From Cristatella mucedo (Eukaryota > Bryozoa > Phylactolaemata > Cristatellidae), in NCBI GenBank assembly GCA_009760855.2, contig WPIO01000005.1, positions 10,755,001-10,819,000 on the forward strand: a DNA stretch of 64,000 nucleotides, in the 5' to 3' direction. The notes below the pieces were generated by a model, which was not told where the DNA came from, ran no database searches, and saw nothing but the letters and a program-made list of their open reading frames with translations. Made by a program: the position numbers and the translations under genes. This document shows positions 12,701-15,201 of this stretch, in pieces; the stretch's first letter is position 1, and each line of letters opens with the position of its first letter.

Positions 12701-15201
12701 TACTTCTGAGCTTGTGCACTAGTTGTGATCGAAATATAGACTATTTAGCTTCCTTTGTTTGGCGTCCTTAGCTGTTTGTCAGGTAGGCGTGCTGGTGAAT
12801 AAGTTGGCTTACGAGTAGTTGTTCAGTATTTGATGGGTTATTTGAATAAGTCGGCTATTTTTAGTTTTGCTGGGTATTTTGGCTGACGTATGACAAATTA
12901 ACCTCACTGTTAGTATTTGCTTGAATGCTACTTATGATTGCGCATCTCGATCTGCTTATGATGTCGTAATTGTGGCTCTCTTTCTTGTAGGCAATCTGGT
13001 AAAGCTGATGCATCTAAAAAGGTTAGTGGTGCCCTTTTTTAACGATGAAGCTAACCGACTGTGCAGTTACTATTGGCCAGTTGAATGTTCTGTCAGCGTG
13101 CCCAGAAAATTGCTGCCATTCCCTGGTGTAAATGCATACATTCTCGTTATGAGTAGTGCATGAGTTAACAGTGGCTCTCTCTCTCTCTCTCTCTCTCTCT
13201 CTCTCTCTCTCTCTCTCTCACACACACACACACACACTCACACACGAATGCTCCCTTGAATCTAGAATCTTCCTAATGTTCTGTCGTGCTCACTAGCATC
13301 ATAGCACGAGGAGCGTAAGAGCCGACTCGTGTTAGAGATTGAACCCTTGCTCTTTGCACGTGATGATTAAGTCTACTGTTAGTCCTGTGCCCCGTGCTTG
13401 TCTCTAAGATGCAAGACAGCTATCTACTGTGCGAGGACGTGTTGCACGTTCGAGACAACAAACTTCACCGTTGTTTGCAGGCTGCTGCCGCAGCACTGGT
13501 CACCATAAAAAAGGATGCCCCTGCTGTTCAGCCGGGCAGCGTTGATGTGTCTGCTGCAGCTGCGGCCGCTCTCGTGTATCAGCAAGGGAAGGCATACGGT
13601 GAGTGCCTCTCCCCTGAGCCTGACCGCCCGCGACCAGCACTCGATGTGCTGCCTCGAGTAGCCACTGCACGGTGCCACTGGTTTTCTCATGTGCAGGTGC
13701 TGAATACGTTGTGCCCGTGACGGGTTACTTCTGCAAGCTCTGTCACAAGTTTTACAGCAACGTGACAGCAGCGACAGTTGCACACTGTCAGTCGGAGCAG
13801 CACTTCGAGAAGTACAAGGTACGTGAATCCTTGCGCTCAAACGTGCAGCGCATGTCATCGTTCGTCAGCCGCAACGCCCGGCAGCTGCTGTTCATATTGT
13901 CTTGCTCGAGGCCGAGTAATTCCACTGCTATACACTGGACTGCACAAGAACGGCTAGAGCAGCTGTCGGGAGACCTCGGTAGATCGCGACTGCACCAACC
14001 GTAACTGCCTGCCGGTGGCTTCCATAAAATCGCTTGCAGCGGCCCAAGCTTTAGTGATCACCCACTAAAACAGCGGTTCCCAACCTTCCAAATGCTGCGA
14101 CTCTTTAATACAGTTTCCCTGTTGTGGTGACCCCAACCATAAAATTATAGTGTACAAACTGGAAATGTGTGCTGTCCGATGGTCTTAAGCGACCCCCTGT
14201 TCGACCCCCAAATATGCTTGGGGTCTTGGATATTAGCTGTTATGCCATATTGTTCATGTGCGGTACAGACTTGGGTCGGAGCTAGCATTGCCGATGCCAT
14301 TTCGTCGTTTTAACTGCTCATTTGGCCACTGATAGACGGAAGTTTTCCGAGACAGTCACTCTTGTAGAATAGCCGTATGCATTCGTCTCTATTAACGCAG
14401 TGAGTTGAATTTCCTTGCACGTGGTCTGTGCAGCATCAAGCTGAGTGACGAGTAATATTTACTAGCCGTCTAGGCGGGCCTGTCGTGTTTTCATTTTAGC
14501 TATGTCGTCGCTGCGTCCTGTTCCCCCAACACGAGCTGACTCGCATCATTGGGTGCGATGTGCTTGCTCTGCTGGCTACTCGGGTCGTTCCTGGCAGCCT
14601 GCTGTGAACTGTGGCCCGTTGATTTTTCGCCCAGAGCGCCCTCATTAAAAAGGCCAAAGCTCAGGGTACCGTTGAGCCAGCAGCAGCAGCAGAAGGTAAT
14701 TTGGACGAAGTAACACAGGTGGCCAGCAGCTCGGCTTCTGCCTCAAACGTGGCTGAGGAGGAGGTCGAAAGGCAGCCAGCAATCAATGACGACACCGCTG
14801 ATGTAAAGCCGGAAGAAGAGCCCGAAGAATCCGAAACGGCCGCCGCCGAAGTACCGGAAGAGAGTGGCAGCGACACGAAAGCCGCCGAGTCCGACCTTGG
14901 TATCGGCAATGCTGAGGAGCAGTCGATGTCCGAAGATGCTGAGCCTAGCCCTGTGGATGATGACAAAGCCGGCTTGGCAGCGAATGCAGACGACGCTGCA
15001 TCGATTGATGCCCCAGCTGCTGCTGAGTGTGCCACTCCGGTCGGCAAAAGCAAGCTTGCAGCTGAAGCCGACCTTGATGTAAGTGCTGTTGGCTCATTGA
15101 ACGAGTCTGTCGACGAGGCCATCGAAGATAGCCCTGCTGCCACTGGCCGTGCACGCCGTGGCAGGGGTCGAGCTCCTACTGCCAGGCGAGGCCGCAAGTA
15201 G
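679..15201 (+). CDS. Matrin-type (U1-like C2H2) zinc-finger nuclear protein, 11 coding exons
   Basis: Joined coding exons are 679-748, 3367-3567, 3661-3906, 4917-4969, 6806-6866, 9807-9910, 10411-10478, 12991-13021, 13481-13598, 13697-13818 and 14635-15201. They total 1641 nt (546 residues plus TAG), all introns are GT-AG and every phase matches. The N-terminus (1-165) is rich in Gly, Arg, Tyr and Gln, like RNA-binding low-complexity domains. A Lys/Arg-rich stretch near 183-200 looks like a nuclear localisation signal. Residues 318-358 form a matrin/U1-type finger, C-x2-C-x13-H-x5-H, with C330, C333, H347 and H353. The spacing and the leading VPVTG are those of the C-terminal finger of matrin-3/ZNF638. 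An acidic Ala/Glu/Ser/Asp tail follows, ending in Arg/Gly-rich sequence. No RRM is visible. Family knowledge suggests a nuclear RNA- or DNA-binding or splicing-associated role; the exact orthologue is uncertain. An in-frame ATG at 643 would add 12 residues. Confidence 0.85.
749..2656. other. Intron 1 of the matrin-type gene, unique part
   Basis: Nothing coding is recognised here. There is an AT-rich and TG/TA simple-repeat patch near 1050-1090, a short imperfect hairpin (1244-1267) and an ATT-rich run near 1290-1340. The open frames at 1390-1578 and 1685-2110 lack family resemblance. Confidence 0.5.
2657..3005 (-). repeat. CR1/L2-like LINE 3' end, reverse orientation
   Basis: Reading the reverse strand, it ends with the hallmark tail (tttgcagcaaatgtaaagcg, then gagggcgctttatc) and ATT repeats, preceded by the C-terminal and 3'-UTR part of the LINE. 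It lies in intron 1 of the matrin-type gene. Nearly identical tails recur at least ten times in the window. Confidence 0.8.
3367..3567 (+). CDS. Matrin-type gene, coding exon 2
   Basis: The acceptor is ttgtttattaacag and the donor gtaaga (phase 1 in and out). It encodes a Gly/Asp/Tyr-rich segment, then a Gln run (QQQQQ) beginning a prion-like low-complexity stretch. It is separated from exon 3 by an intron of only 93 bp. Confidence 0.85.
3661..3906 (+). CDS. Matrin-type gene, coding exon 3
   Basis: The acceptor is atttctgcag and the donor gtaagg (phase 1 in and out). It encodes a Gln-rich then RGG-like segment (SRGGGRGRPG, LRGGRG), typical of RNA-binding nuclear proteins. Confidence 0.88.
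4241..4379 (-). repeat. SINE-A copy (tRNA-derived), intron 3
   Basis: Reverse strand: a tRNA-like head with A-box-like tggtccagtgattaaggtg and B-box-like gggctcgagcccc, a short body and the tail aatcgagattaagctctc ending in a short AT-rich run. It matches copies at 41.95, 45.6, 54.2 and 55.6 kb. Confidence 0.8.
4917..4969 (+). CDS. Matrin-type gene, coding exon 4 (53 nt)
   Basis: A short exon between ttgtag and a consensus gtaagt donor, phase 1 in and 0 out. It encodes MWGGGETRQGSKRRSDD after a split Gly. With exon 5 it forms a basic, bipartite nuclear-localisation-like stretch. Confidence 0.8.
4970..6805. other. Intron 4 of the matrin-type gene
   Basis: I see no exon or classified repeat in this 1.8 kb. 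It has short CAG/CTG-rich patches (5010-5030, 6100-6115) and ordinary AT-rich intron sequence. Confidence 0.5.
6806..6866 (+). CDS. Matrin-type gene, coding exon 5 (61 nt)
   Basis: The acceptor is ttatgttccacag and the donor gtaaag. It encodes WNETESQKRRKETGTSDQSR plus one base. The phase (0 in, 1 out) is exactly what exons 4 and 6 require, and the KRRK cluster continues the basic region. Confidence 0.75.
6867..9806. other. Intron 5 of the matrin-type gene
   Basis: No coding exon with matching phase is recognised in this 2.9 kb, nor any repeat of the families listed elsewhere. Several short open frames are present but have no family resemblance. An alternative cassette exon cannot be excluded. 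Confidence 0.45.
9807..9910 (+). CDS. Matrin-type gene, coding exon 6
   Basis: The acceptor is attgtcag and the donor gtatgt (phase 1 in, 0 out). It encodes a Thr/Lys/Pro/Ser-rich linker (for example TYTPKDKATPTSTPNK) with no domain. Support comes from the consensus splice sites and the unbroken phase. Confidence 0.8.
10411..10478 (+). CDS. Matrin-type gene, coding exon 7
   Basis: The acceptor is atttttacctacag and the donor gtaagt (phase 0 in, 2 out). It encodes a Lys/Pro/Ala linker (KLQPQANKTPVKSTPPAGAS). The neighbouring intron carries a 164-bp TG microsatellite. Confidence 0.8.
10608..10771. repeat. (TG)n microsatellite, about 82 units
   Basis: A perfect TG dinucleotide run of about 164 bp in intron 7 of the matrin-type gene. 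Alternating purine-pyrimidine DNA of this length can form Z-DNA and is usually polymorphic. All open frames over it are artefacts of the repeat. Confidence 0.97.
11015..11720 (+). repeat. Degraded CR1/L2-like LINE fragments, intron 7
   Basis: Around 11020-11160 a decayed reverse transcriptase segment reads [12 protein letters not shown], where intact copies have [19 protein letters not shown]. Around 11490-11720 a later segment resembles the LQLVQNSAA region. Stops and substitutions show an old copy. Confidence 0.6.
11721..12990. other. Rest of intron 7 of the matrin-type gene
   Basis: Contains no recognised exon. Overlapping open frames on both strands near 12255-12580 have no family resemblance. 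Confidence 0.45.
12991..13021 (+). CDS. Matrin-type gene, coding micro-exon 8 (31 nt)
   Basis: A micro-exon with acceptor ctctctttcttgtag and donor gttagt, phase 2 in and 0 out. It encodes QSGKADASKK after a split Val. Skipping it would shift the frame, so it should be constitutive if the model is right. Confidence 0.75.
13175..13245. repeat. Compound (CT)n(CA)n microsatellite
   Basis: About 22 CT units (13175-13219) pass directly into about 13 CA units with one interruption, in intron 8 of the matrin-type gene. Confidence 0.95.
13481..13598 (+). CDS. Matrin-type gene, coding exon 9
   Basis: The acceptor is ccgttgtttgcag and the donor gtgagt (phase 0 in, 1 out). It encodes two Ala-rich runs flanking a short KKDAPAVQPGS linker, just before the zinc finger. 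The following intron is only 98 bp. Confidence 0.85.
13697..13818 (+). CDS. Matrin-type gene, exon 10: the zinc finger
   Basis: This exon carries the whole finger: VPVTGYFCKLCHKFYSN, then H and H five residues apart (C330, C333, H347, H353). Spacing matches the matrin/U1-type C2H2 class, and the sequence before the first Cys is nearly the same as in matrin-3. The acceptor is ctcatgtgcag and the donor gtacgt. Confidence 0.92.
14071..14229. mobile_element. SPIN-like hAT non-autonomous element, truncated
   Basis: It begins with the terminal inverted repeat cagcggttcccaacct. Then follow the characteristic internal blocks of the SPIN/URR1-type hAT family: a gcgac then ctttaatacagtt block, ttgtggtgacccc, aaccataaaattat, ccgatggtcttaagcgaccc and gttcgacccccaaa. 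The far end, which should carry the matching inverted repeat, is missing. It lies in intron 10 of the matrin-type gene. The order of blocks makes the family call strong; precise subfamily and age need alignment. Confidence 0.75.
14635..15201 (+). CDS. Matrin-type gene, last coding exon: acidic tail
   Basis: It follows ttcgcccag in phase 0 and encodes 188 residues. It starts SALIKKAKAQ (finger C-cap), runs through a long Glu/Asp/Ala/Ser-rich acidic region and ends in GRARRGRGRAPTARRGRK before TAG at 15199-15201. The acidic region plus a basic RG-rich terminus fits a chromatin or nuclear-matrix protein. Confidence 0.88.
   Translation, partial: SALIKKAKAQGTVEPAAAAEGNLDEVTQVASSSASASNVAEEEVERQPAINDDTADVKPEEEPEESETAAAEVPEESGSDTKAAESDLGIGNAEEQSMSEDAEPSPVDDDKAGLAANADDAASIDAPAAAECATPVGKSKLAAEADLDVSAVGSLNESVDEAIEDSPAATGRARRGRGRAPTARRGRK

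Follow-up and report, generated by a model that had tools for sequence, protein, structure and literature searches.

We analyzed a 64,000-bp stretch of DNA (the window; bases 10,755,001 to 10,819,000 of the 13.6-Mb contig C550, in an assembly of 572 Mb and 688 contigs) and asked what the short repeat at window positions 14071 to 14225 (+ strand) represents. It is very probably a dead and truncated non-autonomous transposon of the hAT superfamily, a miniature inverted-repeat transposable element (MITE) of the SPIN/URR1 type, inserted within an intron of a gene in an invertebrate genome. Transposons of the SPIN type are well known for having moved between distantly related animals, and a further invertebrate with a large, layered population of them, in which one long copy probably retains part of a transposase, would provide an extra point in that transfer network.

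The left end of the window copy is complete. Its terminal inverted repeat, CAGCGGTTCCCAACCT (14071 to 14086, +), begins exactly where a sequence-only reading of the window had placed the start of the element, and when read in the inverse direction (14086 to 14071) it agrees at 15 of 16 positions (93.75%) with the right-end repeat of the 187-bp family consensus described below (consensus positions 172 to 187). In the orientation used in this analysis, the copy covers consensus positions 1 to 162, with 85.4% identity over positions 1 to 130 in the alignment to the consensus. The alignment scored 161, whereas dinucleotide-shuffled versions of the consensus (50 in all), aligned to both strands of the whole window, scored at most 32. 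The copy can be aligned to about 14225 rather than to 14229, the end originally proposed. Its right end is truncated: the last ~25 bp are absent, and the downstream sequence to 14640 yields a best score of 10, against 19 to 20 for the top five of 200 shuffles. Relative to the consensus, 11 bp are deleted after 14198 and 7 bp are inserted at 14213 to 14219 (together spanning 14198 to 14219, +), and the Kimura two-parameter (K2P) distance is 11.1% over 147 aligned bases in an alignment extending to 14225. The sequence-only reading was therefore right that one end is missing, that several substitutions are visible, and that the copy is not brand new. It had also proposed the copy as a dating marker for the lineage, for which a single truncated copy is weak and the family would serve better. 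The 8 bases preceding the element, CACTAAAA (14063 to 14070; strand not applicable), contain a central TA and, by the duplication rule of the family, are presumably the left target-site duplication, whose partner would have been lost along with the right end. The terminal repeat by itself was rejected as evidence, since a 14-mer search allowing up to 3 mismatches found 3 sites in the window versus 4.6 expected by chance.

We conclude that the window copy is an ordinary relic, dead and old. Its intronic position and the retention of about 155 bp might instead be taken to mean that the host gene has co-opted it for regulation or splicing. However, a copy that is 11.1% diverged, lacks one end, and carries both a deletion and an insertion shows what ordinary decay leaves behind. 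Nothing in the sequence analysis hints at a current role, and we consider exaptation very improbable.

A genome-wide search with window positions 14060 to 14240 as the query returned 1,521 first-look candidates, and all 40 of those scored were matches, 39 of them besides the window copy itself at 81 to 87% identity to the query. A core of 21 bases has 202 exact occurrences (104 forward, 98 reverse), while its reversed control has 0. We fetched 38 loci, 8 via the window-query search and 30 via the exact core, and 27 of these proved to be copies with both ends. The consensus, built from 26 of the 27 complete copies with one 319-bp copy excluded, is 187 bp long and has inverted ends; lengths fall between 182 and 189 bp in 21 of the 27. 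The family is short, non-coding, high in copy number, and uniform in length, the features by which MITEs are recognized. Flanking duplications of 8 bp with at most one mismatch were found in 19 of the 27 pairs; over 2,000 re-pairings, the number of such pairs averaged 1.1 and never exceeded 5. Members of the Buster group of hAT elements prefer targets with a central TA, and TA occupies positions 4 and 5 of the left duplication in 20 of the 27 copies. Target-site duplications of 8 bp and short terminal inverted repeats of 10 to 25 bp are given as hallmarks of hAT elements, and the Ac and Buster groups as differing in target choice, in a published account (PMC3942097). Both hallmarks are present in the 187-bp family.

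We propose that the 187-bp MITE, which has no gene of its own, would formerly have been moved in trans by a transposase supplied by a longer relative. This transposase would have bound the shared ends, excised the element, and reinserted it at TA-centered sites, giving rise to the 8-bp duplications. Having lost its right end, the window copy would no longer be mobile.

Longer elements with the same ends as the 187-bp form were recovered. One is 319 bp long (L031), and a form of 316 to 327 bp was found at seven loci (L088 to L094), five of them with both ends, at 72 to 87% mutual identity. Another, L025, is 482 bp long and flanked by ATCTAGAG and CTCTAGAG. Its interior, used as a genome query, produced 45 matches from 40 scored of 96 candidates, many of them short pieces, and the same left interior is extended in two further copies, L115 at about 483 bp and L116 at 642 bp. 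A copy of 1,123 bp (C5:384414-385536, loci L117 and L118) has both ends and the perfect duplication CACTAAAT on both sides. It encloses an 80-residue open frame (L117:589-828) with the motif LLPFPTS..QTGF..KYRSRL..EDDLRCAL, which we take to be that of a hAT transposase C terminus; the frame is probably a remnant of that part of the protein. A search for this remnant in viral contigs gave 134 pattern matches, of which 0 were confirmed. At the same C5 locus, a similar, element-free sequence is visible by eye ~250 to 300 bp downstream. Taken together, the features of the 1,123-bp copy are those that would be expected if it descended from an autonomous element by internal deletion.

The sequence-only reading had entertained an invertebrate host and had named vertebrate contamination of the contig as a circumstance that would undo its interpretation. 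Contig C688 (21,008 bp) is mitochondrial, with a near-full COX1 that reads through when TGA is translated as Trp. In this gene, AGR codons occur at positions that are usually Ser and ATA codons at positions that are usually Met. Because the mitochondrial code of C688 reads AGR as Ser, a vertebrate host is excluded, and the supposition of an invertebrate stands. Pfam confirms COX1, cox2, nad3, and one nad2/4/5-class protein on this contig, the last of which we have taken for nad2. By eye, the gene order nad1-nad6-cob-nad4L-nad4-nad5 lies on one strand and looks lophotrochozoan. A search for molluscan haemocyanin as a host marker gave 0 hits, which is uninformative because no control gave a hit either. 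A repeated stretch of ~2.1 kb around nad3 and tRNA-Ser/Gly was also seen by eye at about 12590 to 14971 of C688.

The nuclear contig C166 (5.6 Mb) includes a stretch 96 to 97% identical to C688 and, of the exact-core places listed, at least four lie on it. Since both the cores and the mitochondrial insert are found on this one contig, the element is native to the animal; it is resident and not contamination. The first 100 of the 202 exact-core places are spread over 51 contigs, many of them several megabases long, and the window itself lies inside a contig of 13.6 Mb. Given this distribution, and given that the inserted mitochondrial sequence in C166 derives from a genome reading AGR as Ser, we attach next to no credence to the idea that the contig or the assembly was contaminated by vertebrate DNA bearing SPIN/URR1. 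Separately, a COX1-region match on a 618-kb contig (L011; C83:1621-5235) is only 74.6% identical to C688 and may stem from an old insertion or from another species.

Our comparison with vertebrate elements draws on two mouse primers only. The primers, R1 and R2, are reverse screening primers given in a paper on mouse Ate1 (PMC2767504). R1, which surfaced via a text search for terminal words, agrees with the 187-bp consensus at 18 of 19 bases with its first base left out, and R2, which lay outside the search terms, agrees at 18 of 20 bases, both mismatches falling within one CpG. The best scores in 1,000 shuffles were 14 for R1 and 15 for R2. The two primers together account for 36 matches over 39 bases. 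They keep the order and strand of the consensus and fall wholly inside the first 75 bases of one end. At the Ate1 primer locus, mouse DNA thus seems to have an end of this kind. In our reading the primers lie within a URR1 copy, a point on which the passage that describes them is silent. A match of this length is too short to establish membership in URR1 or to prove transfer.

Nevertheless, because one end is nearly identical to mouse DNA, we infer that horizontal transfer most likely occurred somewhere in the history of the family, and it may have been by this route that the family entered the present lineage. To judge from the primer alignments, 36 of 39 matching bases would be difficult to explain if neutral DNA had been inherited vertically, and the family has probably at some stage passed between animals that are very distantly related. 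On balance, we incline toward a history, taken as a whole, in which an autonomous transposon of the SPIN/URR1 type, one that invaded mammals as well, reached the host (probably a lophotrochozoan) and then gave rise to several waves of short derivatives, those of ~316 to 480 bp first and the 187-bp form later.

We regard it as unlikely that a hAT lineage was instead inherited vertically from the animal ancestor onward and that the likeness to rodent URR1/SPIN reflects conserved transposase-binding ends. A non-coding match of this quality between mouse and invertebrate is not what such descent would be expected to leave, even if it amounts to 39 compared bases in the first 75 bases of one end of the element. 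Beyond the ends, the interiors of the long forms also resemble the presumed URR1/SPIN interior. The genome does contain many resident hATs (766 candidates in a domain search, 150 scored, 138 matching), and the ~316-bp forms are old, as their mutual identity of 72 to 87% indicates; both would suit long residence. The 187-bp copies, however, are younger, with a median K2P distance to the consensus of 7.4% (6.7% outside CpG-type sites; 25 copies of 175 to 200 bp), figures that are biased low, since copies entered the set through an intact core or through similarity to the window copy.

Several observations weigh against our main reading, that of a SPIN/URR1-type MITE mobilized in trans and acquired by transfer, and the low bias just described is one of them. 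Eight of the 27 duplication pairs fail the test of at most one mismatch, which may reflect decay or misplaced ends, and 11 of the 38 loci, the window copy included, are incomplete by the thresholds used. A literature search for a printed SPIN/URR1 consensus found none. Two exact 21-mers had 0 matches in viral and prokaryote collections, which carry little weight as these are non-animal collections. The 80-residue remnant had 0 matches in Pfam and 0 in PDB, so that its identity as a hAT rests on the motif reading and on the element ends. Neither an autonomous copy nor a complete transposase bearing these ends turned up among the 60 of 138 hAT places that were partly read. Finally, the mouse sequence printed in a second paper matches the terminal repeat only (PMC11247941).

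How closely the family resembles known elements can be stated in part. URR1, a hAT MITE of rodents, is similar in one end, as seen through the mouse primers (18/19 and 18/20), but differs in that the abundant form here is 187 bp long, lacks a URR1-like middle, and resides in an invertebrate. SPIN and URR1 presumably have ends of this kind together with a palindrome in the left interior and a right interior of a particular type, all of which are seen in the long forms. In these forms, the right interior resembles that presumed for URR1, and agreement with SPIN as it is presumed to be extends to the ends, the duplication of 8 bp, and the left-interior palindrome of L115. The identification of a SPIN/URR1-like hAT made from the sequence alone holds for the hAT hallmarks and for ends of the SPIN/URR1 type, whereas likeness to SPIN in the interior is presumptive.

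SPIN-type elements in invertebrates are already known in print. SPIN (Space Invaders) hAT elements of Rhodnius, such as SPIN_NA_12/13_RP, appear in one study (PMC11614815) and are similar to ours in having short non-autonomous forms; they are unlike ours in that a full transposase was not found here in the hAT places read. In Biomphalaria glabrata, a hAT with ~1,000 copies and significant identity to SPIN is reported from an assembly without intact transposases (PMC5440852), which we liken to the present family, by description only, as a high-copy SPIN-like hAT in an invertebrate. A turtle is credited with 385 SPIN elements in a further paper (PMC4054807). If our interpretation is correct, the present animal would add a further node to the network of SPIN transfers between phyla, besides the blood-feeding bug and the freshwater snail already in print.

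The 60 hAT places read in the search for a partner fell into three sets of 20: loci of 3.2 kb, slices of 701 bases (ends unread; two of them extended to 5 kb), and slices of 0.9 to 1.0 kb. Of the full copies and the autonomous transposase that the sequence-only reading had recommended looking for, 27 complete copies were recovered among the 38 loci fetched, and no autonomous one among the hAT places read. One candidate was a very young hAT family, read at the 20 loci L046 to L065, with 62 places scoring 73.5 to 78 bits (55 of them with an identical domain score of 76.8) and longest open frames of about 635 to 642 amino acids, plus one of 1,947. It resembles what is sought in carrying a hAT dimerization domain, but differs in that the terminal repeat of the 187-bp family is absent, at up to 3 mismatches, from all 20 loci of 3.2 kb; as far as seen, it is rejected as the partner. 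A second group, the ..CEQ.FS-like hATs, has the hAT C terminus (PF05699) and includes L081, L084, and, by eye, 15 of the 20 slices L095 to L114. Of the other five, again by eye, L110 and L112 hold pieces of the young hAT, while L104, L109, and L113 are of a third type. L087, which is L084 extended, has ends (CAGGGGTGTCCAAC) that differ from those of the 187-bp family, and in the 20 slices the 482-bp element had no match at an E value of ≤1 within ~700 bp downstream. A single loose 11-base match to that element in L099 is not an end. A partnership with this group is thus unsupported.

The exons and intron of the host gene were predicted by eye. The element lies within a phase-0 intron (gt..ag; 13819 to 14634, +), as the sequence-only reading had held, although its description of the gene as matrin type is weak. 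The upstream exon (13697 to 13818, +) encodes a C-x2-C-x13-H-x5-H motif suggestive of a weak U1/matrin-like zinc finger, with E values of 0.073 for zf-U1 and 0.053 for another zinc-finger family, both below Pfam cut-offs. The downstream exon starts with SALIKKAKAQ, and neither of the two frames flanking the intron matches a Pfam family at an E value of ≤0.001.

Elsewhere in the window, a frame with a frataxin domain lies at 50883 to 51614 (+; Pfam E value of 5.4e-31, with PDB matches as well). A mir-219 precursor at 57219 to 57289 (+) scores 55.4 bits, barely above the Rfam cut-off of 54.5, and is surrounded by a G+C-rich stretch (0.574 for 56001 to 60000). A retrotransposon piece at 16531 to 16959 (−) matches RVT_1 with an E value of 1.2e-11; a second piece at 59962 to 60378 (+), with no Pfam match, by eye overlaps and continues the first. 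A long (TG)n run occupies ~10608 to 10771.

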